In this document: one piece after another, positions 7,101 to 48,688 of the stretch
Layout of the letters: each line of letters starts with the position of its first letter
Numbering within the stretch: the stretch's first letter is position 1
Notes under the pieces: model-generated
Told to the model about the DNA's origin: nothing
Seen by the model: only the letters and a program-made list of their open reading frames with translations
Databases searched by the model: none
From: Devosia sp. A16
GTDB taxonomy: Bacteria; Pseudomonadota; Alphaproteobacteria; Rhizobiales; Devosiaceae
DNA: 64,000 nt
Assembly: GCF_001402915.1 (NCBI RefSeq)
Contig: NZ_CP012945.1
Span: 1,436,001-1,500,000 of the forward strand
Reading direction: 5' to 3'
Program-made: the position numbers and the translations under genes

Positions 7101-9569
7101 CTACGCGCGCGTACTACGTCCAGCCTTCGATGATGCAGGTAGAGGCCGAGCTGACTCGTTAATCTCGGCCCACGGATCGCCAGACGTGGTTAATAATCCC
7201 GGAAGCGTAGAGTAGTTCAAATCCATCGGAGCGTCGATGCTCTCGAGGTCGCGCCAGTCGAGCGGCGTCGAGGCCGGCATGTTGGTGCGCGCGCGCAGCG
7301 AGTAGGGCGACACCGCCGTCGCACTGCGGGCATTGCGATGGATATCGATCAGGATGCGGCGCTTGCGGTTCTGCGCCCCGATAGTGGTGACGAACGTATC
7401 GGGCGCGGTCTTGGCCATCGTGGCCGCCATCTCGCCGGTCACCGCGTGCACCTGCTTCCAGTTCTGCTTCGGCTCGATCGGCACGACGAGGTGAAGGCCC
7501 TTGCCGCCCGAAGTCTTGACGAACGGCACCAGCCCGAAAGCCTCGAGCTCGCCGCGCAGGTGCACCGCCGCTTCCACCACCTCCCGGAATTCGATCCCCT
7601 CGCCGGGGTCGAGGTCGAAGGTCACCCGGTCGGGCTTTTCCAAGTGCGTCAGGTGGCTGCCCCAGGCATGGAACTCCACCACCCCGAACTGCGCCAGCGC
7701 CAGGTAGCCCTTGGCGTCCTCGATGGTAAGGTAGGTCCTGTCCTCCTCGTCCGAGTTCTGCGTCTCGAACACGTTGATCGAGGGCGGCATGCCCTTGAAA
7801 GCATGGCGCTGGAAGAAGCAATCCTTCGGCAGCCCGGTGGGGCAGCGGAACAGCGAGACCGGCCGGTTGAACAGATGCGGCAGCATGAAATCGCCCACCG
7901 CCGCATAGTAGACCGCGATGTCGAGCTTGGTCGGGCCGCTCCTGCCGAACAGCCGACGCGTCGGGTTAGTGATCGAGATCGAAGCGAGGTCGGCATCGGT
8001 GATCAGCCGCTGCCGTGGTGCCGCCGAGGCGGTGAGCTCGGTCTCGATCAGGCCCTTGAACACCGAGTGACGCAGCAGGTTGTCCGAGGTCCGGTTGGCA
8101 TAGTGCACCTTGCAGCGCAGTACCGGCTGCACCCAGATGATGTCCCTGGGCGCGCCCTCGAGCTTGAGGCTCGGATCCTGCAACCGCTCCAGGCGGTGCT
8201 GCAGCTGCGCCACTATCGCTGCGTCGAACCCGGTGCCGCACTTGCCGCGATATTCGAGCTCGCCATCGACGAATTCGGCCAGCGCCAACGAGGCCAGCCC
8301 TTCGGCGGCCGCTGAAACGGTATAGCCCGCTATGACGAAGTCGCCGACTGGCTTGGCCTTCACCTTCACCCAGGTCGAAGTCCTCCCCGACTGGTAGGTC
8401 GCGTTGGTGCGCTTCGAGACGATGCCCTCGAGCCCCAGCTCCAAGGCCCGCTCGTAGAGCCCCTCGCCATCGCCCTCGACATGGTCGCTCAACTGGATCG
8501 CCGAGCGCCCGCTGATATGCCCGCCCAGCATCTGCGCCAGCAATTGCTTGCGCTCGGTGAGCCCCGCGCCCCTCAGGTCATAGCCGTCGAGATAGAGCAG
8601 GTCGAAGGCGTAGAAGTGCAGCTTGCTCCCGGCGCCTTCGGCCAGCGCATCCTGCAGCGCCGAGAAGCGCGAAATGCCCTTTTCGTCCAGCACCACGATC
8701 TCGCCGTCGACGATCGCCTGCTTGACCGGCAATTTGGCGAACTCCTTGGGCAGGTCGCCATAGCGCTTGGTCCAGTCGATGCCGCTGCGGGTGATCAGCT
8801 TCACCTTGCCGTCGATCACATGAGCGATGGTGCGATAGCCGTCGAACTTGATCTCGTGCAGCCAGTGGCTGGCTTTCGTCTCCTGCGGCGGCTCGGTCGC
8901 CGAGGCGGCGAGTTGCGGCTCCACCTGCTCGGGTGGCAGCGCCTTCACCGCCCCATCGACGCTCGCGGCCTTCAGCAGCTTGACCGGCTTCGGCTTCGCA
9001 GCCTCCAGCAGCTCTTCGGTGGTCAGCCCCGACTTCACGCTTTCCGGTCGCGCGGTGAGGATATCGGTTTCGGTGTCGACCGCCGGATCGTGCTCCTTGA
9101 TCAGCAGCCAGTTTTCCTTGTCGTTGTCGCCGGGGCGGCCCTTGAGCCGGGTCAGCATCCAACCGCCCTTCAGCTTTTCTCCCCACAGCCGGAACTTGAA
9201 GCCGCCCTTGCTGAGCCCGGTATCGACATCCTCCATCGGCGCCCAGTCGCCGGTATCCCAGACGATCATCGGCCCGCCGCCATACTCGCCTTCGGGGATC
9301 ACGCCCTCGAAATCGATATATTCGATCGGATGGTCCTCGGTATGCACCGCCAGCCGCTTGTCGGCCGGGTTGAGCGATGGACCACGCGGCACCGCCCAGC
9401 TCAGCAGCACCCCATCATGCTCGAGCCGCAGGTCATAGTGATCGGCGGTGGCCGAATGCTTGTGCACGACGAAGCGCGTGCTGCCGGCCGCAACAGCGCC
9501 ACCGGCGGGCTCCGAGGTTTTGGAGAAGTCACGTTTCCCGCGGTACTTGCTGAGCTTGGTTTCGGCCAT
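7101..9569 (-). CDS. ligD: DNA ligase D (phosphoesterase-ligase-polymerase)
   Basis: This is the multifunctional NHEJ ligase of 822 residues in the order phosphoesterase, ligase, polymerase. The 3'-phosphoesterase domain (about 30-160) shows the metal site H38/H44/D46 (DHYDLRLE) and H80. The ATP-dependent ligase domain (about 230-510) has the nucleotidyl lysine K241 in EIKFDGYR, VDGEIVVLD and EGIVSKR. The primase-like polymerase domain (about 540-820) has the catalytic FDLDPGEG (D652, D654), the TSGGKGLH loop and ILIDIHRN with the third Asp. No domain is truncated. Ku follows 9 bases downstream. This enzyme repairs breaks in non-replicating cells and can add nucleotides at ends. Confidence 0.97.
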   Translation of the reverse strand: MAETKLSKYRGKRDFSKTSEPAGGAVAAGSTRFVVHKHSATADHYDLRLEHDGVLLSWAVPRGPSLNPADKRLAVHTEDHPIEYIDFEGVIPEGEYGGGPMIVWDTGDWAPMEDVDTGLSKGGFKFRLWGEKLKGGWMLTRLKGRPGDNDKENWLLIKEHDPAVDTETDILTARPESVKSGLTTEELLEAAKPKPVKLLKAASVDGAVKALPPEQVEPQLAASATEPPQETKASHWLHEIKFDGYRTIAHVIDGKVKLITRSGIDWTKRYGDLPKEFAKLPVKQAIVDGEIVVLDEKGISRFSALQDALAEGAGSKLHFYAFDLLYLDGYDLRGAGLTERKQLLAQMLGGHISGRSAIQLSDHVEGDGEGLYERALELGLEGIVSKRTNATYQSGRTSTWVKVKAKPVGDFVIAGYTVSAAAEGLASLALAEFVDGELEYRGKCGTGFDAAIVAQLQHRLERLQDPSLKLEGAPRDIIWVQPVLRCKVHYANRTSDNLLRHSVFKGLIETELTASAAPRQRLITDADLASISITNPTRRLFGRSGPTKLDIAVYYAAVGDFMLPHLFNRPVSLFRCPTGLPKDCFFQRHAFKGMPPSINVFETQNSDEEDRTYLTIEDAKGYLALAQFGVVEFHAWGSHLTHLEKPDRVTFDLDPGEGIEFREVVEAAVHLRGELEAFGLVPFVKTSGGKGLHLVVPIEPKQNWKQVHAVTGEMAATMAKTAPDTFVTTIGAQNRKRRILIDIHRNARSATAVSPYSLRARTNMPASTPLDWRDLESIDAPMDLNYSTLPGLLTTSGDPWAEINESARPLPASSKAGRSTRA

Positions 9570-21237: not shown

Positions 21238-22062
21238 ATGCGCATTATCGATACCCATCTGCACCTGGTGCACATGGATCGCTTCACCTACCCTTGGCTC
21301 GAGGGCGGCGGGGCACTGAACAGAGCATGGCCAGCCGAAGCCTATGCGGCTGAAGCCCGGGAGCTCGGCATCGAGGCGGCGTTGCACATGGAGGTGGACG
21401 TCGCCGAACCTGACATGGAGGCCGAAACCCGCCACGCGCTCGATGTGCATCCACTGGTGGTCGGCGCCATCGCCGCCTGTCGTCCCGAGAGCCCGGATTT
21501 CCCGGCCTATCTCGATCGCCTCGCGGCATTGAAGGGCGTCAGGGGCTTCCGCCGCATCCTTCACACCTCGCCGGACGAATTGAGCCGGGGCGAGTTGTTC
21601 CGTTCCAACCTCCGCCGCCTCGCCGACAAGCACCTGCCCTTCGACCTCTGCGTGCTCGGTAAGCAACTGCCGGTCGGCCGCGAACTGGTCGAAAGCTGCC
21701 CCGAGGTGCAGTTCGTGCTCGATCATTGCGGCATCCCGGACGTGGCGGCCAAGGCGCTCGACCCATGGCGACGCGAGATCGCGGCGTTGGCGGCTTTGCC
21801 CAATGTAGCCGCCAAGATTTCCGGCATCGTCGCCTATGCCGGCCCCGACTGGACCGCCGCCGACCTCCGCCCCTTCGTCGACCACATCATCGAGTGCTTC
21901 GGCTGGGATCGCGTCGTCTGGGGGTCGGACTATCCGGTGCTGACGCTGACCGCCGATCTCACGCGCTGGGTCAATGCCTCCCGGGAGATCGTCGCCGGCG
22001 CCAGCCCCGACGAGCAGGCGAAACTGTTCCACCGCAACGCCGAGCGCATCTACCGCATCTGA
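21238..22062 (+). CDS. Amidohydrolase-superfamily hydrolase, probable sugar-acid lactonase
   Basis: This TIM-barrel metal hydrolase of the COG3618 group (L-fuconolactonase, L-rhamnono-lactonase and pyrone-dicarboxylate lactonase relatives) has 274 residues. It starts MRIIDTHLHLVHM with the metal-binding HxH (THLHL). It continues with FVLDHCGIPD (His on strand 6) and WGSDYPVLTL (the Asp on strand 8), all typical of the group. Opening an aldonolactone to the acid is the likely reaction. Its TGA stop lies inside a CTGATATATCAG palindrome at 22059-22070. It is followed by the oxidoreductase gene after 81 bases. No specific sugar can be assigned; context suggests a 6-deoxy-sugar. Confidence 0.78.
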   Translation: MRIIDTHLHLVHMDRFTYPWLEGGGALNRAWPAEAYAAEARELGIEAALHMEVDVAEPDMEAETRHALDVHPLVVGAIAACRPESPDFPAYLDRLAALKGVRGFRRILHTSPDELSRGELFRSNLRRLADKHLPFDLCVLGKQLPVGRELVESCPEVQFVLDHCGIPDVAAKALDPWRREIAALAALPNVAAKISGIVAYAGPDWTAADLRPFVDHIIECFGWDRVVWGSDYPVLTLTADLTRWVNASREIVAGASPDEQAKLFHRNAERIYRI

Positions 22063-22070
22063 TATATCAG
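22059..22070. promoter_or_regulatory. GntR-type operator CTGATATATCAG (site A)
   Basis: This perfect 12-bp palindrome lies 74 bases before the GTG start of the oxidoreductase gene. The same 12 bases occur at 33144 and 40496, always at the head of a transport or catabolic unit. Here the motif overlaps and supplies the TGA stop of the amidohydrolase. Probable site for one of the FCD-type GntR regulators at 38.9-40.5 kb. Confidence 0.78.
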
Positions 22071-22085
22071 CGTTGCTCCAGCGGC

Positions 22086-22124
22086 CCACATGTGAAATAC
22101 CCATTCACATAAGAATGGATGTGG
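22086..22124 (+). promoter_or_regulatory. Nested leader hairpin upstream of the CoA operon
   Basis: CCACAT (22086-22091) pairs with ATGTGG (22119-22124), and the inner CCATTC (22101-22106) pairs with GAATGG (22113-22118) around ACATAA. Together they give a 12-bp stem with a nine-base bulge. It lies between operator site A and the ribosome-binding site GAGGAG at 22136, so it would be in the 5' leader of the transcript. Function unknown. Confidence 0.5.
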
Positions 22125-22143
22125 CACAGCGGGCGAGGAGCAG

Positions 22144-23208
22144 GTGAGCATCGACGTCGGAGCGCTCAGGCAAAGTTGGCCCCGGCCAAGCACCCCCAGG
22201 CCGATCGTCATCATCGGCGCCGGCGGCATCGTCACCGATGCGCATCTGCCGGCCTACCAGCTCGCCGGCTTGCCGGTGGCTGGCGTGTTCGACCTTGATG
22301 CCGCGCGCGCCGGGGCAGCCGCCGAGACGTGGGGAACCCGCGCCTTTGCCTCGCTGGACGAGGCGGTCGCCATGCCCGGTGCCGTCTACGATCTCGCTTT
22401 ACCGCCGGCCGCCCATCTCGACGTGCTGCCAGAACTGCCGGAAGGCGCCGCCGTGCTGCTGCAGAAACCGATGGGCCGCGACCTCGCCGAGGCCACAGCG
22501 ATCCTGCAGCTCTGCCGGGCCAAGTCGCTCAAGGCCGCGGTCAACTTCCAGCTTCGCTTCTCGCCCATGATGCTGGCCGTTGCGGATGCGGTTGAGCGTG
22601 GCTGGTTCGGCCGCCTGGTCGATGTCGAGGTGCATCTCAACCTCGTCACCCCCTGGCACCTGTTCCCGTTCCTCAACGGCATGCCCAGGGTCGAGATCGC
22701 GGTGCACTCGATCCACTATCTCGATACGCTCCGCGCCCTGCTCGGCAACCCCAGCGGCGTTCATGCCCGCACGATGGGACACCCGTCGACGGCGCTGGCC
22801 CAGACCCGCACGTCGGCGCTGTTCGATTTCGCGCCCGACCAGCGCGTCACCTTCTCGATCAACCACAACCACGATTTCGGCCGGCGCTTTCAGGATGCGA
22901 GCTTCCGTTTCGAGGGCACCGAGGGTGCAGCCATGGTCAAGCTCGGCCTGTTGCTCAACTATCCCGAGGGTGAGCCGGATGAACTGTGGATCACCCGTCG
23001 GGGAAGCGAGTGGACCCAGGTGCCACTCGAGGGAAAGTGGTTCCCGCATGCCTTCATCGGCACGATGAGCAACCTGCAGCGATTTGCCGCCGGCGAAGAT
23101 GACCGCCTCGTCACCGGCGTCGAAGACGCCTGGCACACCATGGCCCTGGTCGAAGCCGCTTTCGAGTCCGCCGCCAAACCGGCCACCCCCGTGAGGTCAG
23201 CACCATGA
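22144..23208 (+). CDS. Gfo/Idh/MocA-family NAD(P)-dependent oxidoreductase
   Basis: This is a sugar or inositol dehydrogenase-like protein of 354 residues. A Rossmann fold near the N-terminus has [18 protein letters not shown] (GxGxxx at 25-30) and an acidic residue after strand 2 (VAGVFDLD), suggesting NAD(H). The usual EKP motif appears as QKP (LLQKPMG, 107-109), keeping the important lysine. The C-terminal domain starts NFQLRFSP. The start is GTG at 22144 after a GAGGAGCAG ribosome-binding site. Its stop overlaps the next gene's ATG (ATGA), so it is coupled to the MaoC-like gene. A role oxidising a sugar or sugar-acid hydroxyl is likely. Confidence 0.85.
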
Positions 23209-23750
23209 GCACGCCGACTGTCGGAGTTCACTCCACCAACCCGACCACCATGCCGATCGAGCATGCCCGATTGCCGGTGTGGAACGCCGAAAACTGGTTC
23301 TACGAGGATTTCGAGGTCGGCCACAAAATCCGCTCGCTCCGCCGCACCATCTCGGAGGGCGAGAGCATGCAGTTCAACGCCCTGGTCACCGACATGCATC
23401 CCTATGTGGCCGACGAGATCTTCGCCAGCACCGAAGGCCAGTTCGGTCGCCGCCTCGTCGCTGGCGCCTTCGTCTTCTCGGCCGGGCTCGGGCTTGTCGC
23501 CACCAACTGCATCAACGCCTTCAGCTACGGCTACGACAAGCTGAGGTTCATCAAGCCGACCTTCATCGGCGACACCATCTACGCCATCCGCACCAACATG
23601 GAAAAACGCCCAAAGTACAGGGAGCTCGGCCTGATCCGCGCCAGCTACGAAGTGTTCAAGGGTGAGGGCGAACTGGTGCTCTACTGCGAGCATCTGCAGA
23701 CCGTGAAGTACCGCAACGCAGCCGACTTCGAAGGCAAAACTGAGAAATGA
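23205..23750 (+). CDS. MaoC-like hot-dog protein, catalytic residues altered
   Basis: This protein of 181 residues has the MaoC/hydratase-2 hot-dog pattern: [44 protein letters not shown] and [20 protein letters not shown]. Active R-hydratases carry D-x-N-P-x-H and a VAHG turn. Here the first motif is DMHPYV (63-68) and the second is VAGA, so the Asn and His of the known active site are absent. It may be a non-catalytic partner of the second MaoC protein at 26007, or have changed chemistry. It overlaps both neighbours by four bases in the operon. Confidence 0.78.
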
Positions 23751-24898
23751 CCAGCCTCCCTCTCGATGGCGTGCTCGTCATCGATCTCTGCCAGTTCCTC
23801 TCCGGCCCCTACGCCTCGCTGCGCCTGCAGGACCTCGGTGCCCGCGTCATCAAGATCGAACGCCCCGAAGGCGGCGACCTGAGCCGCCGGCTCTATCTCA
23901 GTGACACCGAGATCGGCGGCGACTCGACGATCTTTCACGCTATCAACCGCAGTAAGGAAAGCCTGGCGCTCGACCTCAAGAACCCCGACGACATCGCGGC
24001 GCTCCGGAAGCTGCTCGGCCAGGCCGACGTGATGCTGCAGAATTTCCGCCCCGGCGTCATCGAGCGGCTCGGCCTCGACTACGACAGCGTCAAGGCGATC
24101 AACCCGGGCATCGTCTACGCTTCCATAACAGGTTATGGCGAGGCGGGTCCGTGGGTACAGCGCCCTGGCCAGGACCTCCTGGCGCAGGCTCGTTCCGGCG
24201 TCATGTGGCTCAATGGCGACCACGACCAGGGCCCGGTGCCCTTCGGCCTCGCCATTGCCGACATGCTGGCCGGCGCTGCCGTGGCCCAGGGCATCCTCGC
24301 CTCGCTGGTGAAGAAGGGGCGCACCGGGACAGGCGCGCATGTCGAAACCAGCCTCCTCGAGGCGCTGGTCGATTTCCAGTTCGAGGTGCTGACCACCCAC
24401 CTGAACGATGGGCGTCGCACCCCGAAGCGCTCCGGCTTCCGCTCGGCCCACGCGTACCTCTCGGCGCCTTACGGTGTCTATCCCACGGCCGACGGCTGGC
24501 TGGCGCTCGCCATGACGCCGCTCGGCAAGATCCGCGACCTGCTCGGGCTGCCTGAACTCGACCGCTTCGCCACCGATCCCAAGAGCTGGTTCAGCGCCCG
24601 CGACGAGATCAAGCGCATCATCGCCGAACGCCTCGCCACCCGTACCACCGCCGAATGGCTCGCCGTACTCGAGCCCGCCGATATCTGGTGCGCCAAGGTG
24701 CTCGAGTGGCCCGAGCTGCTCGAAAGCGAAGGCTTCAAGGCGCTCGACATGCTGCAGACCGTGACACGCGATGACGGCGTTTCCATCCTCACCACCCGCT
24801 CGCCGCTCCGCATCGACGGCCAGCGCACCCAGACGCGACGCGCCGCCCCGCTGATCGGCGAGCAGAGCGCAGAAATCCGCAAGGAGTTCGGACTGTGA
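23747..24898 (+). CDS. Family III CoA-transferase (CaiB/BaiF), Glu at the usual catalytic Asp
   Basis: This family III CoA-transferase of 383 residues would move CoA between acids in the cytoplasm. Family marks are [64 protein letters not shown] and [11 protein letters not shown]. In formyl-CoA transferase the nucleophile is the Asp in the '(L/M)xDA' turn after GxGxxV. Here that turn reads ETSLLEAL, giving Glu205. Glu occurs in some homologues, and activity cannot be judged. The gene overlaps the MaoC-like gene before it and the binding-protein-like gene after it, so all are one operon. Confidence 0.88.
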
Positions 24899-26007
24899 CC
24901 ACCCTCAGGGGCATGACCTGGAGCCACCCCCGCGGCTATGACCCGATGGTGGCCACCGCGACCGCCTGGGCGGCGAAGACCGGCGTCACCATCGAGTGGG
25001 ACAAGCGGAGCCTTCAGGATTTCGAGTCCTTCCCGGTCGAGGAACTGGCGCGCCAGTATGACATGATCGTCATCGACCACCCGCATGTCGGCCAGGTGGT
25101 CGAGGAAGGCTGCCTCGCGCCGCTCGACGTGCCGGCTCGCGAGGCCGAACGCACGGCACTGGCCGAAGGCTCGGTCGGCCGGTCCTACCCGAGCTATGCC
25201 TATGCCGGGCACCAGTGGGCCTTCCCCATCGATGCGGCGACGCAGGTCATGGCCTATCGCGCCGACCTGATCGAGCCACCGCAGAGCTGGGATGAGGTGG
25301 TGGCGCTGGCCAGGGCCGGCCGCGTCGTCTTCCCGCTGCTGCCGCCGCACTCGATGATGAGCTTTTTCACCCTCACCGCCAATCTCGGCCATCCCTGCGC
25401 GGTCGAGAACGGTCCGCTGGTCGACACTGCCGCCGGCATCCGCGCCATCGCGATGCTGGCCGAGGTCGCGGCGCATCTCGACCCCGCCGATTTCACCATG
25501 GACCCCATTGCCGCTTCCGAGGCGATGGCGCGCCCGGACGCCAGGGTAGCGCTGATGCCGCTCGGCTACGGCTATGTCAGCTATGCCGTGCCGGGCTTCC
25601 GCCCGCACCAGCTCACCTTCGCCGATATCCCGTTGCCCGGCGCCAAGGGCTCGGCCCTCGGCGGCACCGGCATCGCCGTCTCCGCCTTCTCTCAGAACAA
25701 GACAGCCGCCATCGACTACGCCTACTGGGTCGCCTCGTCTGAAGTGCAGCGCACCCTTTATGCCAGTTCCGGCGGCCAGCCCGGCCATGCCGACGCCTGG
25801 GAAGACGAGGCGGTGAATGCCGCCGCCGGAAACTTCTATCGCGGCACCCGCAGGACGCTGGAGGGGGCCTATGTGCGGCCGCGCCACAATGGCTACATGG
25901 CGTTCCAGGATGCCGCTTCGAAGCGCCTGACCATCGGGCTGATGGGGCACGAAGCGCCCGCGACCATTCTTGCCGATCTCGATCGCCTGTTCCGGGAGAG
26001 CTTCTGA
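24895..26007 (+). CDS. Cytoplasmic protein of the ABC solute-binding-protein fold (no signal peptide)
   Basis: The 370-residue protein begins [20 protein letters not shown], which is how mature family 1 solute-binding proteins begin after their signal peptide. It continues with typical features ([46 protein letters not shown] and [18 protein letters not shown]). There is no export signal. The GTG start overlaps the previous stop (GTGA), and the frame upstream is occupied by the CoA-transferase, so a leader has no room. It is therefore probably cytoplasmic, and no permease is adjacent. It may bind or sense a pathway intermediate, or be an enzyme built on this fold. Function unknown. Confidence 0.8.
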
Positions 26008-26450
26008 TGGAGCGGCCGCGCCACTTCGAGGACTATGTCGTCGGCGAAGTCCGCAAGACCAGCGGCCGCACCATCACCGAGACCGACTTCGTCGTCCACG
26101 CCGGCCACACCGGCGACTTCTTCCCGCACCACATGGACGCCGAGTTCATGAAGGCCTCCGAGTTCGGCCAGCGCATCGCCCACGGCACCATGACCTTCGC
26201 CATCGGCATCGGGCTGACCGCCACCGAAATCAACCCGCTCGCCTTCACCTACGGCTACGAACGCCTGCGCTTTCCCAAACCGGTGTTCATCGGCGACACC
26301 ATCCACACCGAACTGACCATCACCGGGCTCGACGACGACCCTAAGCGCCCGAACTACGGGCGCGTGACCGAGCAGGTGCGGGTGCTCAACCAGCGCGGCG
26401 AGACGGTGCTGGCGTGCGACCACATCTATCTGGCGCAGCGACGGGGGTAG
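26007..26450 (+). CDS. MaoC-like (R)-specific hydratase, hot-dog fold
   Basis: This 147-residue hot-dog protein retains more of the hydratase-2 site than its operon mate. D37 and H42 sit in DFFPHHMD, which replaces the standard D-x-N-P-x-H, and H59 sits in QRIAHGTM. Adding or removing water on a CoA thioester is the expected chemistry, although Phe in place of the motif Asn is unusual. It shares [21 protein letters not shown] with the 181-residue paralogue, so the two are related duplicates. Its ATG overlaps the previous stop (TGATG). Last gene of the operon, followed by a repeat region. Confidence 0.82.
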
Positions 26451-26834: not shown

Positions 26835-28730
26835 CTACCCCTCCCGCCCCAACAACGGTGTCGGCCCATCCGCCGCACGCACCCAGGGCGTGTCATAACT
26901 CGGCGCATGGGCGAAGCGCCGCATCCCCAGCGTCAGCCGCGCCGTCGCGCCCGCCCCAAGCTTCACCGTAACCCACCGCCCGCCGACCGCCACCGGCGCG
27001 GCATCGCTCAGTTGCACGGACGTGATGTCGTGCTCCCCGAACACCCCGCCCTGGATCACCACTTCCGCCGCATGCACCGCGTCGGTGTTCACCAGCGTCA
27101 GCGTCGCGCCATCGTGCGTGAGGCCATCGACCAGCGCCGCGACGCCCTGCGGCAGCCCCGGGCGTTTGCCGGCCGCATCGAAATAGCGGAACCGCGCCAC
27201 CTGCAACCCGCCATGATAGACATGCATCGGGCCGCCCAGCGTCAGCTGGGTCAGCGCCTCCACGACCATCGGCGTCAACTGCTGCCACATGTGGATGGTC
27301 ATCGACTCCCGATAGTGATCCATCGTCTCCGGATCGTTCTCGGCCTTGCGATAACTGGCGATCTGCTCGGTGATGGTCTTGAGGTCGGCCCTCAGCACCT
27401 CTTCCGGATAGGTCGGATATTTGCCGCGCATGAACTTGAACCACTGCGCGGTGTTGCCGTTGAAGCCCATATGGCCGCCATTGGTCTTGCCGTAGCCGTG
27501 ATAGTCAGGGTTCACTTTGTCGAACAGCTCGCCGGCCCAGCCGCGTTCGGCCCGCTCCGCGTCCTCCTCGGCCGTCGAGACGTTCCACAGGTACACCCCG
27601 TACATCGGATGGCAGCGGCGATAGTCGCGCCAGCCTTCGTCATAGTGCCGGTTCGGCACCAGTTGCTGGCCGCCCTCCTCGCGCCTGAGCCCCCACAGCA
27701 TGTCGAGCTGCGAACGCGCCAGCTTGAGATGCGCCATATCGCCGGTAAGGACCGCCGCATTGACTCCGGAAACGCAGAGCGGTTCGAGCAGCGAGAACGA
27801 GCCGTGCGGCCAGCGCCAGCCGTAGTAACCGCCCCACCACTTGCCCTCGTTGTATTCGCCGATCTCGCCTGAGAGACCGATGTTGTCGGGCGTGATCCCG
27901 CCATTCCTTGCGGTGCGCTCCTCCCAGGCCGCGAGATAGTCGAGCACCCAGGCCCGGTATTTCTCCTCGCCGGTATAGGCGAAGGCGTGGGTCATCAACG
28001 AGGTGGCGCCGAGGTTGAGCGGCACGTCGCCGCGCGACTGCCGCTGGTTGATGCGGCTCAGGATTTCCGCATAGGTCGCATTGTCCGACCACGGCGTCTT
28101 CATGCCGTATCGGTCGATCCCCGGCAGGTCTTCGAAAGGCGGCAGATAGTCGTCGAGGATTTCGCGATGCGTCGACCAATCCTCCGCCGTCTGGGTGAAG
28201 CGCGGGCCCCGGCTGCCGGTGATGGGCGAGCGGATCAGCCGCTTCTCGGCATCCCAGTTCTGCGCCTCGGCGTCCTCGCCATTGTAGAAGCCGGCAAAGC
28301 GCCGGGTCCGCTGGCGGTCCTTGGGCACGGCGGGGTCGGCGAGCCCGAAGAAGTAGAAGAACAGGTTGCTCTCGCCGTGGTGCATCCAGTCGTAATAGGC
28401 GTCGTACTCGCGGTGGATCTGCCCGTATTCGGTCCACTGCCAGGTGATGCCGTCCCAGATGGTGCGCGAACGTTTGTAGACTTCCTCGGAGCCGCCCAGC
28501 GCGTAGAACAGCGGCATGTTCATGAACCCCTCATAGGGGTCGTCCGAACCATCCATGCCCGGCCAGCGATCGCGCCAGATCAGCGTGCCGTCGGCCCGCG
28601 TGTAGCGGTCGGCGAACTCGATCGCCGCCGCATCCAGCACCGCGAAGATCTGTCGCTGCAGCAGCGCCCATTCGGGCAAGGGGAGGATATCGCCCGCCGC
28701 GATGGACGGCAGGATTGGGGCGCTGCTCAT
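26835..28730 (-). CDS. Uncharacterised 631-residue protein, possible carbohydrate-active enzyme
   Basis: I do not recognise the family with certainty. The sequence is rich in aromatic residues and His (WQWTEYGQIHREYDAYYDWMHH, EYNEGKWWGGYYGWRWPHG, YHGYGKTNGGHMGFNG), in long helical stretches of the kind seen in (alpha/alpha)-barrel glycoside hydrolases and lyases, and ends in a ~100-residue beta-rich domain. There is no signal peptide, so it should act in the cytoplasm, perhaps on imported oligosaccharides. It is the last gene of a CUT1 importer operon, five bases after the ATPase stop. The glycan-processing role is inference from fold impression and context only. Confidence 0.5.
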   Translation of the reverse strand: MSSAPILPSIAAGDILPLPEWALLQRQIFAVLDAAAIEFADRYTRADGTLIWRDRWPGMDGSDDPYEGFMNMPLFYALGGSEEVYKRSRTIWDGITWQWTEYGQIHREYDAYYDWMHHGESNLFFYFFGLADPAVPKDRQRTRRFAGFYNGEDAEAQNWDAEKRLIRSPITGSRGPRFTQTAEDWSTHREILDDYLPPFEDLPGIDRYGMKTPWSDNATYAEILSRINQRQSRGDVPLNLGATSLMTHAFAYTGEEKYRAWVLDYLAAWEERTARNGGITPDNIGLSGEIGEYNEGKWWGGYYGWRWPHGSFSLLEPLCVSGVNAAVLTGDMAHLKLARSQLDMLWGLRREEGGQQLVPNRHYDEGWRDYRRCHPMYGVYLWNVSTAEEDAERAERGWAGELFDKVNPDYHGYGKTNGGHMGFNGNTAQWFKFMRGKYPTYPEEVLRADLKTITEQIASYRKAENDPETMDHYRESMTIHMWQQLTPMVVEALTQLTLGGPMHVYHGGLQVARFRYFDAAGKRPGLPQGVAALVDGLTHDGATLTLVNTDAVHAAEVVIQGGVFGEHDITSVQLSDAAPVAVGGRWVTVKLGAGATARLTLGMRRFAHAPSYDTPWVRAADGPTPLLGREG

Positions 28731-40541: not shown

Positions 40542-41693
40542 ATGCGCATTTCGGAATTCCGCATCACCCGTTTCCAGTTTGCCCGCGACCGCGTGATCGG
40601 CGACAGCCAGGTCCGCGCCGACGACGTGAACATAGCGGCGCTCGAACTGATTGCCGATACCGGCGCGGTCGGGTTGGGGTTTATCCAGACCTTGTTTTTC
40701 CCGCTGCCCGATCAGGCCGAGATCGAGCGGGTCTTCCGCTCGGAAGTCTGGCCCGGCCTCGAAGGCCAGCCACCCGCCGGGCTGGTGCATCGCGTCGGCC
40801 GGCCGCGCGGCGGCAACCAGCGCGCCACCACCCTCCCCTTCCATGAAGCGCTGCAGGTCGCGCTCTGGGATCTCGCCGCCAAGCAGGTGAACCTGCCGCT
40901 GCACCGGCTGCTGGGCAGCCGTCGCGACAAGGTCGAGGCCTATGCCTCGGGCCTCGATTTCCACCTTTCGGACGATGACTTCGCGAAATTCTTCGGCCAT
41001 GCCGACGCGATCGGCTACCGCGCCTTCAAGATCAAGGTCGGCAGCCCGGATTTCGACTGGGACCTCAACCGCCTGAACATTCTCAAAGAGGTGGTCCGCA
41101 AGGACGCCCTGGTGATGATCGACGCCAACGAGGCCTGGGGCGCCAAGGAGGCGCTGGTGAAGCTCACCGCCATCCGCGATGCCGGCCACGAACTGCTCTG
41201 GGTCGAAGACCCGATCCTGCGCACCGACTATGCCGGGCTCAGGATGCTGAAGGACGCGGCCAACTGGACGCTGATCAACTCCGGCGAATATCTCGACGCC
41301 CACGGCAAGCGCCTGCTGATGGAACAGGACGCGACCGATATCCTCAACGTCCATGGCCAGGTCACCGACGTGATGCGCATCGGCTGGCTCGCCGCCGATC
41401 GCGGCATTCCGGTCAGCCTCGGCAACACCTTCCTCGAGGTGGGCATCCACATGGCCTGTGCGCTCCCCGAAGTGCAGTGGCTCGAATACTCGTTTCAGAA
41501 CTTCGACCACCTGGTCGACCAGCCGGTCGAGATCCGTGACGGCTGGGCCTATGCCCCCGATCGCCCCGGCCACGGCCTGGTGCTGAACGAAACCGCCCGC
41601 CGCGAGTGGGCCCGCCCCAACCTCTTGCCGCGCTCCGAGCTCGGCGAAGCCCCGTTCAATCCGCGCGTCGCCCAGGCGCTGCGCGCGGCCTGA
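40542..41693 (+). CDS. Enolase-superfamily sugar-acid dehydratase 2
   Basis: A 383-residue mandelate-racemase/muconate-cycloisomerase-like protein. The barrel shows K163-x-K165 (AFKIKVG), D194 (VMIDANEAW), E222 (WVEDPIL) and E249 (INSGEYL). On the late strands LGNTFLEVGIHM has Asn where racemases place the catalytic His, so the KxK lysine is probably the main base. Dehydration of an aldonic or uronic acid is likely. It is only distantly similar to the dehydratase at 33152 and so probably acts on another isomer. First gene of a long plus-strand operon under site C. Confidence 0.85.
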   Translation: MRISEFRITRFQFARDRVIGDSQVRADDVNIAALELIADTGAVGLGFIQTLFFPLPDQAEIERVFRSEVWPGLEGQPPAGLVHRVGRPRGGNQRATTLPFHEALQVALWDLAAKQVNLPLHRLLGSRRDKVEAYASGLDFHLSDDDFAKFFGHADAIGYRAFKIKVGSPDFDWDLNRLNILKEVVRKDALVMIDANEAWGAKEALVKLTAIRDAGHELLWVEDPILRTDYAGLRMLKDAANWTLINSGEYLDAHGKRLLMEQDATDILNVHGQVTDVMRIGWLAADRGIPVSLGNTFLEVGIHMACALPEVQWLEYSFQNFDHLVDQPVEIRDGWAYAPDRPGHGLVLNETARREWARPNLLPRSELGEAPFNPRVAQALRAA

Positions 41694-41733
41694 AGTCCAA
41701 GCGAGTTCTGTCATCCAGGGAGGAGACATCCAA

Positions 41734-43005
41734 ATGAATCTTCTGCGCACCACCGTGGCGCTCTCGGCGATCCTCGTCGCCGGCGCCGCTCTTGCCCAGG
41801 ACGGTGCCATCACCGTCTGGGCCGACGCCACCCGCCAGCCGGCGGTCGAAGCGTTCATCGCCGCCCATCCGGAAGTGCCGGTCAACTTGGTGCTCGACGA
41901 TGGCTCGTCGGGCGCCTCGGGCACCTTCCAGACCAAGATCAGCCTCGCCGACCAGGCCAATGAAGGCTGGCCGGACGTGGTGTTCTCCACCCAGAACAAC
42001 GACGCCGCCTGGGCCGCCCGCGAGAACAACGGCGCCCAGGCCTTCGCCCAGGTGCTGAACGAGGGCTTCCTCGACCAGGCCTTCCTCGATGGCTTCACCC
42101 CGGGCGCACTCGACCCGGTAACCGTCGACGGCAAGGTCTACGGCCTACGCAACGACCTCGCGCCGGTGCTGTTCTGGTACAACAAGACCCTGCTCGATCA
42201 GTTCGGCTACGCCGCCCCGACCACCTGGGAAGAGTACCAAGCGCTGGGCGACAAACTCGCCGCCGAGCACCCCGGCTACTTCCTCGGCGCCATCGGCGAC
42301 GCCTTCCAGGGCCCGTACATCTATTACTGGAGCGGCGAAGCGCCGATCTTCCAGCTCGAAGGCGAAACCTTCAAGTCCGACACTTCGGCGCCGAACGCGG
42401 TGAAGGTCTCCAACCTCATCGACCACATGGTCGCCAACAAGACGCTGACGCTCGACAGCGTGTTCGGCGCCAATTTCGTCGCCAGCGCGGCCAATCTCGT
42501 CGCCATCCCCGGTCCCGCCTGGTACTCGGGCGCACTGTTCCAGAACCCCGGTGGCGTCAATGCCAAGGCCGGCGACTGGGTCGCCGCGCCGCCACTGAAA
42601 TGGGCCGATGGCGCTGCGGTCACCGGTAATGTCGGCGGCGGCGTCTGGTACGCGTCGAGCCACACGAAAAACCCCGAGGCGGTGAAGACCTTCCTCAAGT
42701 TCGTCATCAGCGACACCAAGGTCGCGGGCACCGGCGGCCTGCCGGCCTATCAGGCGGCGGCCGATGCCTGGCTCGACGCGCAGGCGGCGAGCGGCTTCTA
42801 CGCCGGCGACTTCAAGGCTGCGATCCAGACGGCCGCTTCGAGCGTCTGGAACGGCTGGGGCTACCCCAACTTCTCGCCCGAAACCGCCTGGGCCAAGGTC
42901 GTCACCCCCGGCCTCGCCGCCGGCAAGACCATGACCGACCTCGCCGCCGACTGGCAGCAGGAAATGAAGAACGAAGCCCAGGTCGTCGGCTACACGGTCG
43001 AGTGA
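41734..43005 (+). CDS. ABC sugar solute-binding protein (family 1), importer 3
   Basis: A 423-residue periplasmic receptor. The leader MNLLRTTVALSAILVAGAAL ends at AQDGAI. The mature protein opens ITVWADATRQPAVEAFIAAH and has VVFSTQNNDAAWAAREN, LFWYNKTLLDQFGYAAPTTW and GNVGGGVWYASSHTKNPEAV. A GGGAGGAG ribosome-binding site precedes the ATG. It resembles the importer 2 receptor. A repeat with strong hairpins separates it from its permeases. Confidence 0.92.
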   Translation: MNLLRTTVALSAILVAGAALAQDGAITVWADATRQPAVEAFIAAHPEVPVNLVLDDGSSGASGTFQTKISLADQANEGWPDVVFSTQNNDAAWAARENNGAQAFAQVLNEGFLDQAFLDGFTPGALDPVTVDGKVYGLRNDLAPVLFWYNKTLLDQFGYAAPTTWEEYQALGDKLAAEHPGYFLGAIGDAFQGPYIYYWSGEAPIFQLEGETFKSDTSAPNAVKVSNLIDHMVANKTLTLDSVFGANFVASAANLVAIPGPAWYSGALFQNPGGVNAKAGDWVAAPPLKWADGAAVTGNVGGGVWYASSHTKNPEAVKTFLKFVISDTKVAGTGGLPAYQAAADAWLDAQAASGFYAGDFKAAIQTAASSVWNGWGYPNFSPETAWAKVVTPGLAAGKTMTDLAADWQQEMKNEAQVVGYTVE

Positions 43006-43012
43006 TCCCTTC

Positions 43013-43146
43013 ACCTCTCCCTTGGGGGAGAGGTCGACGCGAAGCGTCGGGTGAGGGGGCCTTGCGGAACGCGCAGTAAGGCCCCCTCACCTCAGCTTCG
43101 CTAGGCGGCCAAGCCGCCAAGCTTCGCTATCCTCTCCCCCAAGGGC
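43013..43146. repeat. Inverted-repeat element between receptor and permease genes of importer 3
   Basis: CACCTCTCCCTTGGGGGAGA, CGACGCGAAGCGTCG, the arms GGTGAGGGGGCCTTGC..AAGGCCCCCTCACC and CTCTCCCCCAAGGGCGAG make a nested structure. The module GCTTCGCTAGGCGGCCAAGC is shared with 26451-26834, and GGGTGAGGGGGCC with 9600-9752. Here the element is inside an operon, so it probably reduces read-through into the permease genes. Confidence 0.75.
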
Positions 43147-43211
43147 GAGGAGGCGTTTCGGGCGACGCGCGTTGCCCAAGGATGAACGTCTAGTGCCTGG
43201 AGCCGCCTGAA

Positions 43212-44138
43212 GTGAGCACGATCGAACATAGCGCTGCCACTGTCGCCCTCGAACGCCCCAGGAAGGGCATGAGCGTCGAGCGCGCCCAGGGCCGCATCGG
43301 CGTGCTGTTCGCCACCCCCTACACGCTGTTCCTCATCGCCTTCGGCATCCTCCCGGCGCTCTACGCCATTTATCTCGCCTTCACCAGGAAGGGCGCGTTT
43401 GTCGGCTTCGACAATTTCCTCAAGGTGTTCAAGGACTACCGTTTCTGGCCCGCCGTCGAGCATGTCGGCATCTTCATCGTCGTCTGGCTGGTGCTGCTGG
43501 TCGTGCTGGTGGTGACCCTCGCCATCCTCGTTCACTCGATCGGCTTGCGCTGGTTCTCGGGCGCCATGCGCTTCATCTACTATATCCCCGGCGCGCTGGC
43601 CGGCGCCTCGAGCGTCATGCTCTGGCTGTTCGTTCTAGATCCCACCGTCAGCCCGGTGTCGTGGCTGCTGCAGGCATTGGGGATCGAGAGCTTCGTTGGC
43701 GCCGTTGACGCCAGCCGCCTGCCGATCGTCCTCGCGGTGATCGCCTTCTGGACCGGCGCCGGCGGCTGGATCGTCATCATGTACGGGGCGCTCAACAACA
43801 TCAGTAAGGACGTGATCGAAGCCGCCCGCGTCGATGGCGCCGGCCCGGTGCGTATCGCCTGGTCGATCCAGATCCCGCTGATGCGCAAGTGGATCGCCTA
43901 CATGGTGATCATGAGCTTTGCCGGCGGCACCCAGCTCTTCGTCGAGCCCCGCGTCTTGGCGCAGGCCAGCCGCGGCGTAGTGGGGCAGGACTATTCACTG
44001 AACCAGCTCGCCTTCCTCTACGCCTTCAAGCAGAACGATTTCAATGGCTCGGCGGCGATCTCGCTGGTGCTGCTGGCCGTCGCTGTCGCCCTTTCCATCT
44101 ACTTCGTCTTCAAGGGTGGCCTGTTTGAGCGCGCCTAA
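43212..44138 (+). CDS. ABC sugar permease, MalF type, importer 3
   Basis: A 308-residue permease with six membrane segments, EAA loop VIEAARVDGAGPVRIAWSIQ and the LFVEPRVLAQASRG region shared with importer 2. The start is GTG at 43212 (MSTIEHSAATV). The next gene begins inside its 3' end. No ATPase gene is present in this operon, so an ATPase encoded elsewhere, probably at 37575 or 28736, must energise it. Confidence 0.92.
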   Translation: MSTIEHSAATVALERPRKGMSVERAQGRIGVLFATPYTLFLIAFGILPALYAIYLAFTRKGAFVGFDNFLKVFKDYRFWPAVEHVGIFIVVWLVLLVVLVVTLAILVHSIGLRWFSGAMRFIYYIPGALAGASSVMLWLFVLDPTVSPVSWLLQALGIESFVGAVDASRLPIVLAVIAFWTGAGGWIVIMYGALNNISKDVIEAARVDGAGPVRIAWSIQIPLMRKWIAYMVIMSFAGGTQLFVEPRVLAQASRGVVGQDYSLNQLAFLYAFKQNDFNGSAAISLVLLAVAVALSIYFVFKGGLFERA

Positions 44139-45039
44139 CTCGGAAATCGTCGGCACCCGCTTCAAGGACCTGACACCGGCTGCCTGGCTGGGTCGCGCCT
44201 TCGCCGTGCTGGTCCTCATCGTCTTTGCGCTGTTCTTCGTCGTGCCGCTCGTCTGGCTGCTGATCGCGCCGACGAAGACCGATCGCCAGCTGCTGCTCGA
44301 GGCGCCGTTCGCGCTGGGCGACATGGGCACGCTGCTTGCCAACTGGCAGAGTCTGATGACCTTCCAGGGCGGGCTGATCTGGACCTGGATCGGCAATTCG
44401 GTGTTCTATTGCGTCGCCGCCCTGGTGATCACTCTCGCGATCTCGATTCCCGCCGGCTACGCCCTGGCGATGACCGAGTTCCGTGGCCGCAGGCTGCTGC
44501 TGGTGGTGACGCTGATCGTCATGCTGATCCCCTCCACCGCCCTGGTGCTGCCGATCTTTCTCGAGCTGAGCGCGGTGCGGCTGATCGGCAATCCGCTCTC
44601 GGCCATCCTGCCCTTCTCGTTCTACCCGTTCGGCGTCTACCTCACCTACATCTACTTCTCGACGGCGGTGTCGCGCGACCTGCTCTCGGCGGCGCGCCTC
44701 GACGGGGCAAGCGAGTGGCAGGTGTTCATGAAGATCGCCATGCCGCTGAGCACGCCGGTGATCGCGCTGGTCGGCTTCTTCAGCTTCACCGGCAACTGGA
44801 ACAACTATTTCCTGCCCTATGTGACGCTGCCCGGCCGCAAGGCGCCGATCCAGGTCGGCCTCGCCGAGCTGCTGTCGAACGTGCCGGCCTTCAATCCCAC
44901 CAACGCCGCTTCGACCACCATCACGCTGTCGGCGCTGGCGCTCGCGACGCTGCTCGCCATCGCCCCGGTGCTGCTCGTCTTCCTGTTCGCGCAGCGCTAC
45001 CTCGTATCCGGCATGACTGCCGGCGGCACCAAGGAGTAA
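44125..45039 (+). CDS. ABC sugar permease, MalG type, importer 3 (TTG start)
   Basis: A ~304-residue permease with six membrane segments, PSTALVLPIFLELSAVRLIG, FYPFGVYLTYIYFSTAVSRD, EAA loop LLSAARLDGASEWQVFMKIA and tail VSGMTAGGTKE. I choose TTG at 44125, which follows AAGGGTGG at a suitable spacing and overlaps the previous gene's last codons; GTG at 44116 is the alternative. The longer frame upstream lies in the previous gene and is a shadow. Closely similar to the MalG-type subunit of importer 2. Confidence 0.88.
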   Translation: MSAPNSEIVGTRFKDLTPAAWLGRAFAVLVLIVFALFFVVPLVWLLIAPTKTDRQLLLEAPFALGDMGTLLANWQSLMTFQGGLIWTWIGNSVFYCVAALVITLAISIPAGYALAMTEFRGRRLLLVVTLIVMLIPSTALVLPIFLELSAVRLIGNPLSAILPFSFYPFGVYLTYIYFSTAVSRDLLSAARLDGASEWQVFMKIAMPLSTPVIALVGFFSFTGNWNNYFLPYVTLPGRKAPIQVGLAELLSNVPAFNPTNAASTTITLSALALATLLAIAPVLLVFLFAQRYLVSGMTAGGTKE

Positions 45040-45042
45040 GTC

Positions 45043-45375
45043 ATGGTCCAGCGCATGGGCATGGTGATCGGCGTGAAGCCGGAAAAGCTGGCCGAGTACA
45101 AGCGGCTGCACGCCGAACCGTGGGCGGAGATGGATGCGGCGCTGAGCGCGGCGAACATCCGCAACTATTCGATCTACCTGCGCGAGCCCGAAATGCTGCT
45201 GTTCGGCTACTGGGAATATACCGGTTCCGACTACGAGGCCGACATGCGGGTGCTGGGCGACAAGGCGATCACCAAAGAGTGGCTGGCGCTCACCGACCCG
45301 TGCCAGGCGCCGCTGAAGACCGCCGCCGCAGGCGAGTGGTGGAGCATGATGCCCGAAATCTACCATCTCGACTGA
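45043..45375 (+). CDS. L-rhamnose mutarotase family protein (RhaM/RhaU-like)
   Basis: A 110-residue dimeric ferredoxin-like protein expected to interconvert the alpha and beta anomers of L-rhamnose or a similar 6-deoxy-hexose. MVIGVKPEKLAEYKRLHAEP with H23 (the catalytic His position), NIRNYSIYLREPEMLLFGYW, and the terminal GEWWSMMPEIYHLD with the paired Trp are the family marks. Length matches RhaM (~104). It lies three bases after the permease stop and is the strongest hint that the imported sugar is L-rhamnose-like. Related proteins may serve other deoxy-sugars. Confidence 0.87.
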   Translation: MVQRMGMVIGVKPEKLAEYKRLHAEPWAEMDAALSAANIRNYSIYLREPEMLLFGYWEYTGSDYEADMRVLGDKAITKEWLALTDPCQAPLKTAAAGEWWSMMPEIYHLD

Positions 45376-45385
45376 GGACAAGCTC

Positions 45386-46564
45386 ATGGTTGAACTGAAC
45401 GGCCGGACCTACACCCGGCGCGAAATCGCCGAGCGCGCCGGCATGCTGAGCCAGTTCGCCAGCGTGCGGCTGATGGAACTCGGCGACGGCGTCGAGCGCG
45501 GCATCCGCATGCTCGAGTTCCGCACCGGCTCGGGCCTCCGCTTCACCGTTTTGGTCGACCGGGCGCTCGACATCGCCGACTGCGAGTTCAAGGGCCAGGC
45601 GATCGGCTGGAACTCGCCGGCCGGCTTCCGCCACCCGGGCCTGCATGAATATGAAGGCGAAGGCGGTCTCGCCTGGGCCCGCTCATTCTCAGGTCTCTTG
45701 GTTACCTGCGGGCTCGACCACATCCTGTTCATGAACGAGGTGCCGGCCGACACCTATGTCTATGGCCCCAAGCCGACGGTCAGCCACTCGCTGCATGGCC
45801 GCATCGGCACCATCCCGGCAAAGCTCACCGGCTATGGCGAAGAGTGGCGCGGCGACGAGTGCGTGCTGTGGGCCGAGGGCATCGTGCAGCAGTCGGCGGT
45901 GTTCGGCGAAGACCTGCACCTCATCCGCCGCATCGAGGCAGATGTCGGCGGCAATGACATCCGGATCAGCGATCGGGTCGTCAACCATGGCTTCTACAAG
46001 ACGCCGCACATGTACTGCTACCACATCAATGTCGGCCACCCGGTCCTCGACGAAGGCTCGCGCTACCTCGCGCCGATCAAGGACGTGGTCTGGGCCGCCC
46101 ATGCCGGCGAGGCCTATCGCAAGCAGGGCGTCGGCTACCGCACGCTGAGTGCCCCAAAGCTCGATTTCCACGAGCAGGTCTGGCAACACGAACTCGGCGC
46201 CGATGACCAAGGCCAGCAGTTCGTTGCCTTGGTCAACGATCGCCTCGGGCTCGGCTTCGAGGTTGCCACCGCCAAGGCGCAGTTCCCCTGCCTCTACGAA
46301 TGGCAGAACCTGCAGGCCGGACAGTATGCGCTCGGCATCGAGCCCTCCACCAACCACGTGCTCGGCAACAACGCCGCGCGCCAGCGCGGCGAGATGATCT
46401 GGCTGCAGCATGGCGAGGAGAAGCGCTACGACAGCACCTTCCGGGTGCTCGACGGCGCCGACGACATCGCCGCCAGCGAAGCGCGCATCCGCGCCATCTC
46501 CGGCCAGCCCGAGGACGAGTATCCGGCCCCCTCAGGCAACCACCTGAAGATCGGGGGCCGCTGA
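45386..46564 (+). CDS. DUF4432 family protein, aldose-1-epimerase-like fold
   Basis: A 392-residue protein of the DUF4432 family, related to galactose mutarotases. Features are IRMLEFRTGSGLRFTVLVDR, ALDIADCEFKGQAIGWNSPA, LVTCGLDH, HSLHGRIGTIPAKL, MYCYHINVGHPVLDEGSRYL and the late LGIEPSTNHVLGN. It presumably binds a sugar in its beta-sandwich. Two mutarotase-like genes side by side (this and RhaM-like) is unusual. It may act on a different intermediate, such as a ketose or sugar acid. Its stop overlaps the SDR start (TGATG). Confidence 0.82.
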   Translation: MVELNGRTYTRREIAERAGMLSQFASVRLMELGDGVERGIRMLEFRTGSGLRFTVLVDRALDIADCEFKGQAIGWNSPAGFRHPGLHEYEGEGGLAWARSFSGLLVTCGLDHILFMNEVPADTYVYGPKPTVSHSLHGRIGTIPAKLTGYGEEWRGDECVLWAEGIVQQSAVFGEDLHLIRRIEADVGGNDIRISDRVVNHGFYKTPHMYCYHINVGHPVLDEGSRYLAPIKDVVWAAHAGEAYRKQGVGYRTLSAPKLDFHEQVWQHELGADDQGQQFVALVNDRLGLGFEVATAKAQFPCLYEWQNLQAGQYALGIEPSTNHVLGNNAARQRGEMIWLQHGEEKRYDSTFRVLDGADDIAASEARIRAISGQPEDEYPAPSGNHLKIGGR

Positions 46565-47328
46565 TGGGTGCTGATCGCTTCGGCTCGCTCGAGGGCAAGG
46601 CCATCCTCTATACCGGCGCCGCCGGCGGCCTGGGGCTGGAGACGACGCTCGAACTGCTGCGCTCGGGTGCAAAGGTTGTCGCCATCGACAATGATGCGAG
46701 AAAGGTTGCAGCGCTGCTCGATGCGGCCGGCGGCCTTGCGGGCCTGACCGTAGAGAGGCTCGATCTCGCCGATCTCACCGGACTGCGCGCTGGACTCGAG
46801 AACCTTTCGGCCGAGCTCGGCGGCTTCGACATCGTCATCAACAACGCCGCGATCTATCCCTCGAAACCCTTCGAGGACTACAGCATCGAAGAGATGCAGC
46901 TGGTACAGCGCATCAATGTCGATGCCGGCATTGTCTGCGTCCAGGTGGCCCTGCCCCATATGAAGGCGGCAAAGCGCGGCCGCATCATCAACATCTCCTC
47001 GGTGACCATTTCGGGCGGCTGGTCGGACCTCACCCCCTATGTGCAATCGAAGATGGCGCTGGTCGGTCTCACCCGCTCCTGGGCGCGTGAGTTCGGCAGG
47101 CATGGCATCACCGTCAATGCGGTGGCGCCAGGCGCCTTCCCCACCGACGCCGAAAAGATCCATCCCGACCTCGCAGCCTATGAGAAGCGCATCTACGAGG
47201 CGCAGGCGCTGCAACGGCGCGGCGCCCCTGCCGACATCGCCAACATCCTGATGTTCCTCGCCTCGGACGCAGCGTCGTTCATTACCGGCCAGACCATCCA
47301 CGTGGATGGCGGCTGGTACATGCATTGA
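46564..47328 (+). CDS. Short-chain dehydrogenase/reductase, probable NAD-dependent sugar dehydrogenase
   Basis: A 254-residue classical SDR. The cofactor motif TGAAGGLG (17-24) is followed by an acidic D42 after strand 2 (VVAIDND), which favours NAD(H). NNAA (93-96), S145, Y159 and K163 (YVQSK) complete the active site. In context it probably oxidises L-rhamnose, L-fucose or a similar sugar at C1 to the lactone, or a 2-keto-3-deoxy acid later in the route. I choose ATG at 46564 because it overlaps the DUF4432 stop; longer frames run through that gene. Confidence 0.88.
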   Translation: MGADRFGSLEGKAILYTGAAGGLGLETTLELLRSGAKVVAIDNDARKVAALLDAAGGLAGLTVERLDLADLTGLRAGLENLSAELGGFDIVINNAAIYPSKPFEDYSIEEMQLVQRINVDAGIVCVQVALPHMKAAKRGRIINISSVTISGGWSDLTPYVQSKMALVGLTRSWAREFGRHGITVNAVAPGAFPTDAEKIHPDLAAYEKRIYEAQALQRRGAPADIANILMFLASDAASFITGQTIHVDGGWYMH

Positions 47329-47405
47329 TGCAAACGATGACTGATAGAGACGGCCCCGTCTGCTTCAGTTTCCCACCACCTGTCATCTCCTCGGAATCCT
47401 GACCC

Positions 47406-48664: not shown

Positions 48665-48688
48665 CAGTCTTTCAGTCAGGAATAGGCC

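Follow-up and report, generated by a model that had tools for sequence, protein, structure and literature searches.

Dehydration of sugar acids is normally carried out by metal-dependent enzymes that act on the free acid. In the described non-phosphorylating route a mutarotase, a 1-dehydrogenase, a lactonase and a dehydratase are followed either by a short-chain dehydrogenase/reductase (SDR) with an FAH hydrolase or by an aldolase, and the FucM-A-B-C-F-G pathway provides a precedent for the sugar part of the system considered here (PMC11199699). Precedents for its CoA part are the CoA cycling by CaiB/CaiD, through which carnitine is dehydrated with recycling of CoA (PMC2131755), and Mct/Mch, in which a CoA-transferase acts with a hydratase (PMC5592240). 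The system in question is a six-gene operon at positions 21238-26450 of a 64,000-nucleotide window (C1:1436001-1500000) from the genome of Devosia sp. A16 (G000; 5.03 Mb, one contig), in which sugar-oxidation genes and CoA enzymes are joined to a CUT1-type solute-binding protein (SBP) that appears to be cytosolic. This conserved combination, for which no description was found in the open-licence literature, points to an undescribed CoA-dependent processing of sugar acids.

Layout, conservation and shared operator of the operon

All six genes lie on the plus strand. AmH (21238-22062), a COG3618-type sugar lactonase of the Amidohydrolase_2 family (Pfam PF04909, 7e-52) with conserved metal-ligand motifs HxH (DTHLH), HCG and GSD, is separated by 81 bp, without overlap, from a GTG-initiated Gfo/Idh/MocA oxidoreductase (Gfo; 22144-23208; Pfam GFO_IDH_MocA, 3e-12), a probable aldose 1-dehydrogenase whose motifs QKPMG and HSIHYLD are kept across 48 sequences. 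Downstream follow the hot-dog protein MaoC1 (23205-23750; Pfam MaoC, 4e-11), a CaiB/BaiF class III CoA-transferase (CaiB; 23747-24898; Pfam CoA_transf_3, 3e-102, full length over residues 6-373), the SBP (24895-26007, GTG start; Pfam SBP_bac_8, 5e-18) and MaoC2, of the (R)-specific enoyl-CoA hydratase type (26007-26450; Pfam MaoC, 4e-25). Consecutive genes overlap by 4 bp at Gfo/MaoC1 and MaoC1/CaiB (both ATGA), by 4 bp at CaiB/SBP (GTGA) and by 1 bp at SBP/MaoC2 (TGATG); coordinates and Pfam families agree with the original prediction of five genes overlapping by 1-4 bases behind a lactonase-like gene. NCBIfam equivalogs were matched by the operon proteins only at scores far under the cut-offs (AmH scored 96 bits with its best model, L-fucono-1,5-lactonase, for which the cut-off is 400), so none of them closely matches an enzyme characterised in this library. 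The operon region gave no sigma70-like promoter and a single terminator-like match, on the opposite strand, which is below chance expectation; both results say little given the GC-rich genome.

Conservation was surveyed in genome contigs with the SBP as query, which yielded 73 loci, all thus chosen by the presence of the SBP, from Devosia, Phyllobacterium, Mesorhizobium, Rhizobium, Kaistia, Martelella, Tabrizicola, Skermanella, Thalassospira, Bordetella and others. In a tblastn search of these loci with the six proteins, the six families recurred together and in several gene orders. Of 249 Hyphomicrobiales genomes, 21 had the SBP, 23 had MaoC2 and 21 had Gfo; every SBP-positive genome carried MaoC2, with the two starts ≤14.6 kb apart in all 21, and 19 of the 21 carried Gfo (Fisher p = 1.5e-28 for SBP with MaoC2, and 3e-24; relatedness uncorrected). 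Counted by genus, the SBP was present in 15 of 112. Of 95 loci, 92 had CaiB ≤12 kb from the SBP and 89 had a hydratase, either a MaoC or a crotonase, within this distance. Homologues are held by Sinorhizobium, Mesorhizobium, Roseibium and Streptomyces, so that strains amenable to laboratory work are available; in phage records no SBP homologue was found. Co-conservation in relatives, which the original prediction had set beforehand as its test, was thus strongly positive, and co-occurrence with recurrent adjacency bears out its proposal of one conserved pathway. Its view of the combination as rare did not hold, the set being widespread in alphaproteobacteria and present in another phylum (Streptomyces).

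De novo clustering of all open reading frames (ORFs) in the loci identified recurrent neighbours: an IclR regulator (45 loci), a periplasmic SBP (c8, 37 loci), two permeases with a UgpC-type ATPase, an enolase-type protein (c11, 28 loci), a member of the L-rhamnose-mutarotase family (c12, 24 loci), a KduD-like SDR (c13, 17 loci) and an FAH protein (c55). The periplasmic c8 protein was tied to the module (16/21 module genomes vs 0/8 others), as was the IclR regulator (15/21 vs 0/8). With the regulator, mutarotase, SDR, FAH hydrolase, enolase-type dehydratase and ABC transporter as further members, the pathway goes well past the six predicted families, which do recur together. The operon genes almost certainly constitute one conserved functional module, and both the module and its linkage are well supported. 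An apparent Gfo-MaoC2 fusion (L040 13543-15063, a 506-aa ORF in Rhizobium sp. G21) was a lone case with a frameshift-like joint and was not used.

The gap between AmH and Gfo contains an operator-like palindrome, ATGTGAA-N7-TTCACAT (22090-22110, strand not assigned), which is the sole match in the window at ≤2 mismatches (0.03 expected). The exact pattern TRTGAA-N7-TTCAYA was searched for across 2.17 Mb, made up of the window and 116 loci, and gave 43 sites, 42 of them ≤260 bp upstream of module genes (Gfo 19, MaoC1 16, a c34 lactonase 4, CaiB 2 and an IclR gene 1, with divergent gene pairs making some sites assignable to either neighbour); a triplet-shuffled control gave zero sites. The palindrome also precedes MaoC1-CaiB-SBP operons that stand alone in other genera, including one in Phyllobacterium without sugar genes nearby. 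Because the same operator precedes Gfo units and these stand-alone operons, the sugar genes and the CoA genes belong to a single regulon. The predicted coupling of CoA-thioester enzymes to sugar oxidation is supported. The putative binder of the palindrome is the IclR protein. At ~2.56 Mb in the Devosia sp. A16 genome (L121 7812-10303), the IclR gene (C1:2560555-2561292) and a c11 enolase diverge around a degenerate operator copy (TATGTGAAAAGACTATTCGTGA), and the same locus holds a mutarotase, SDRs and an FAH-like gene and is probably the rest of the pathway.

The CoA enzymes and the binding protein

CaiB keeps a catalytic-type Asp172 (in IADML) and a loop His235 in 71 sequences, as judged by sequence position only, with no superposition; in the reference protein the catalytic residue is Asp169 (CaiB numbering). 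The enzyme would be expected to transfer CoA to an acid. In S. meliloti 1021 the CaiB homologue on pSymB (L074 9313-10457) lies in two frames joined near residue 298, possibly through a frameshift in strain 1021; in strain ABS7 the CoA-transferase is annotated as one full-length gene.

MaoC2, which matches PDB 4ffu at 4e-65, retains the hot-dog catalytic pair D-x(4)-H as D37/H42 and the conserved motif G-D-F-F-P-H-H in 47 sequences. MaoC1, its paralogue (37%), is without the catalytic His, which is replaced by an invariant Val68; Asp63 is kept and a new invariant His65 is present, within a motif V-x-D-x-H-P-Y-V that is invariant in 55 sequences. In the best phmmer alignments MaoC1 matches the C-terminal half and MaoC2 the N-terminal half of double hot-dog hydratases, and because each aligns to the opposite half, a MaoC1-MaoC2 heterodimer with one active site is suggested, though not proven. 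In distant clades (L092 of Streptomyces, L093 of Sinorhizobium, L097, L098 and L116) a crotonase stands in for MaoC while the SBP retains CaiB. Both catalytic Glu residues are kept in the crotonases of L092, L093 and L098, the three sequences that were read, and the SBP tree indicates at least 4 switches between MaoC and crotonase partners, some of the placements being on long branches.

No signal peptide or lipobox was found on the SBP in any of the 73 loci, nor in 16 distant ones. In most relatives the SBP starts at or just past the CaiB stop, and in several loci a signal peptide cannot be encoded because an in-frame stop sits a few codons upstream of the start. Distant SBPs (Streptomyces, Azospirillum and others) start right at G-x-T-W-x-H-x-R, with variation there in L102 and L115. 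The AF2 model (mean pLDDT 95.1, pTM 0.92) has SmoF, LpqY and maltose-type (MalE) proteins as nearest solved folds (Foldseek TM ~0.75-0.85), and the protein combines an SBP_bac_1/8 domain with a CUT1 fold. As read from secondary structure, invariant residues (W9, R13, W35, D61-P63, G66, D113, Y227, Y230, G256-G259, R328-P329 and G333) are located at the ends of strands, the positions that line the cleft in proteins of this type. From the intact fold, the conserved cleft-region residues and the missing signal peptide, the SBP therefore looks like a working cytosolic ligand-binding protein. That it is cytosolic is well supported and very nearly certain, as had been proposed for this binding-protein-like member, no lineage examined having a signal peptide. 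A recent duplication of the periplasmic c8 SBP was rejected as its origin, there being no significant match between the two, and CaiB-SBP fusions suspected from long open frames in two genomes (G477 and G374) proved not to be in frame.

A possible CoA-recycling dehydratase and its alternatives

The pathway would be oxidative and non-phosphorylating, and its most likely substrate is a 6-deoxyhexose of the L-fucose/L-rhamnose type. In the scheme that we infer, with its substrate, CoA ester, reaction direction and role for the SBP, Gfo would oxidise C1 to give a lactone and AmH would open the lactone to the aldonic acid, as their families and neighbours suggest. CaiB would then place CoA on the aldonic acid, the MaoC pair (MaoC2 catalytic, MaoC1 as partner) would dehydrate or hydrate the thioester at C2-C3, and CaiB would hand the CoA on to a further molecule of the acid, which recycles it as in the dehydration of carnitine by CaiB/CaiD. 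The expected product, a 2-keto-3-deoxy acid, would be split further by the SDR and FAH hydrolase or by an aldolase. The SBP might hold the sugar acid or thioester for CaiB and the hydratase, and possibly guard a lactonisation-prone ester. By analogy with the carnitine system, a CoA-recycling sugar-acid dehydratase of this composition is given a probability of roughly 0.4. The broader statement that a CoA thioester is hydrated or dehydrated within a sugar-acid pathway is probable; the general form, in which the cytosolic SBP, CaiB and an exchangeable MaoC or crotonase would replace the metal-dependent dehydratases of non-phosphorylating sugar pathways, is put forward tentatively and may well be wrong.

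CaiB, hydratase and SBP are placed at the dehydration step mainly because minimal clusters are complete except for a dehydratase. In L108, a mutarotase, Gfo, MaoC2, SBP, SDR and FAH stand beside divergent IclR, AmH and CaiB genes, with no dehydratase in the cluster and the nearest MR_MLE or IlvD protein on the contig ~290 kb or more away. L103 consists of a DHDPS-type aldolase, IclR, a RhaT-like transporter, Gfo, AmH, mutarotase, CaiB, MaoC2 and SBP, an enolase-type gene being ~50 kb away, and a classical dehydratase was not seen nearby in L092, L111 or L116. The mutarotase, dehydrogenase, lactonase, SDR and FAH are found together in L076, L095 and L108, and in Devosia sp. A16 the same set is split over two loci, of which the second is L121.

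A 6-deoxyhexose of the L-fucose/L-rhamnose type is favoured as substrate because the FAH protein of L108 resembles, and is closest to, 2,4-didehydro-3-deoxy-L-rhamnonate hydrolase (431 bits, cut-off 500) and because L-fuconate dehydratase adjoins the module in S. meliloti, Nitratireductor and Roseibium. A pathway strictly for L-fucose was rejected, since the occurrence of L-fuconate dehydratase shows no link to the module (10/21 module genomes vs 2/8 others). The S. meliloti pSymB cluster may correspond to SM_b21103-21113, a locus with a possible L-fucose phenotype in public transposon fitness data. Beta-oxidation and carnitine breakdown were likewise rejected; thiolase, acyl-CoA dehydrogenase, CoA ligase and lyase were not seen among the recurrent families identified.

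Several observations weigh against a CoA-recycling dehydratase. A c11-type enolase-superfamily protein is present in 15 of the 21 SBP-positive genomes, Devosia sp. A16 included, and L-fuconate dehydratase in 10 of the 21, so the CoA route is not the sole possible dehydratase, and the module might serve another step, whether epimerisation or a second acid, or have an accessory role. On a Microvirga ossetica plasmid (L094 9931-13164) the gene of a distant SBP without signal peptide overlaps one of the mannonate-dehydratase type, with CaiB not nearby, so a general role of this SBP family in sugar-acid dehydration is conceivable. Free aldonyl-CoA would, moreover, be prone to lactonise. Within the window itself, a second sugar-CoA cluster (40542-49459, plus strand; MR_MLE enolase, signal-peptide SBP, two permeases, L-rhamnose mutarotase, DUF4432, SDR, CaiB and crotonase) has an enolase gene and is without a cytosolic SBP; the 64-kb window thus has two instances of sugar genes combined with CaiB and a hydratase, and this combination does not everywhere depend on a cytosolic SBP. 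The crotonase of this cluster keeps both catalytic Glu residues, and its DUF4432 aldose-epimerase-like protein matches the L093 counterpart at 76%. The Devosia sp. A16 genome as a whole gave ~28 enolase-superfamily (MR_MLE_C) matches and has a rich sugar-acid metabolism set.

In a first alternative, the deoxysugar pathway would be a conventional non-phosphorylating one whose dehydratase is of the enolase type, and in it the SBP would sense or buffer the sugar acid and CaiB and MaoC would handle a side or end product. The c11 enolase often lies inside the cluster and L-fuconate dehydratase stands beside the module in the three taxa named above, but CaiB, MaoC2 and SBP are bound more tightly to Gfo (19/21 genomes) than c11 or FucD is, and minimal clusters without c11 and FucD still hold CaiB, hydratase and SBP; this explanation is judged unlikely. 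The coexistence of the module with c11 or FucD dehydratases would also suit an epimerase, and two MaoC paralogues are present in many clusters: two hydratases would dehydrate and rehydrate the CoA ester, inverting C3 (or C2 by proton exchange), to yield an acid usable by a standard dehydratase. The catalytic His is lost in MaoC1, however, and there is a single MaoC in L108, L103 and L111 and a single hydratase in crotonase-type clusters, which makes an epimerase rather improbable.

The CoA enzymes might instead act apart from the sugar carbon chain, on an acyl substituent that an acylated glycoside has set free, and class III transferases with MaoC or crotonase hydratases are indeed common in acyl-acid metabolism. 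A 3-hydroxyacyl-CoA dehydrogenase or esterase was, like thiolase, acyl-CoA dehydrogenase and lyase, not seen among the recurrent families identified, and there is little to recommend this explanation. The Phyllobacterium operon without sugar genes nearby could even be taken for a sign of chance or hitch-hiking neighbours of unrelated function, yet it carries the same operator, and the near-perfect co-occurrence and the adjacency that recurs in rearranged orders contradict this idea, to which the genome survey leaves hardly any probability.

Neighbouring genes and comparison with known systems

A 631-aa protein encoded next to the operon (26835-28730, minus strand) has no Pfam or NCBIfam match and an AF2 model too poor for use (pLDDT 52); it adjoins the operon in Devosia relatives and also stands beside a sugar ABC transporter. 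Elsewhere in the window (7101-9569, minus strand) lies a LigD-type multidomain DNA ligase (LigD_N, ligase and primase-polymerase).

A CoA-thioester route, if true, would add a new chemical strategy to sugar catabolism, and a function would be gained for an SBP family that is labelled extracellular in databases yet is apparently cytosolic. With SmoF, LpqY and MalE the operon SBP has the two-lobed CUT1 fold in common; unlike them, it is without a signal peptide, has an N-terminal G-x-T-W-x-H-x-R and is encoded beside CaiB rather than beside its own transporter. Module clusters share a mutarotase, C1 dehydrogenase, COG3618 lactonase, SDR, and FAH or DHDPS-type aldolase with the L-fucose (FucM-FucA-FucB-FucC-FucF-FucG or FucH) and L-rhamnose pathways, but their dehydrogenase is of the Gfo/Idh type, CaiB, MaoC and the cytosolic SBP are constant extras, and some clusters are without the FucC of the L-fucose pathway.

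On the CoA side, the carnitine system likewise encodes a class III CoA-transferase with an enoyl-CoA hydratase, which in distant versions of the module is also a crotonase; its partners CaiC ligase, CaiA and CaiT are not among the recurrent families identified in the loci, and the module differs from it in its sugar context, in using MaoC in most members and in the added cytosolic SBP. The pairing of a CoA-transferase with a MaoC hydratase is common to the module, to succinyl-CoA:mesaconate CoA-transferase with mesaconyl-CoA hydratase and to RipA/RipB of itaconate degradation; unlike in these systems, a CitE/Mcl-type C-C lyase was not seen in the module loci, which show sugar genes.

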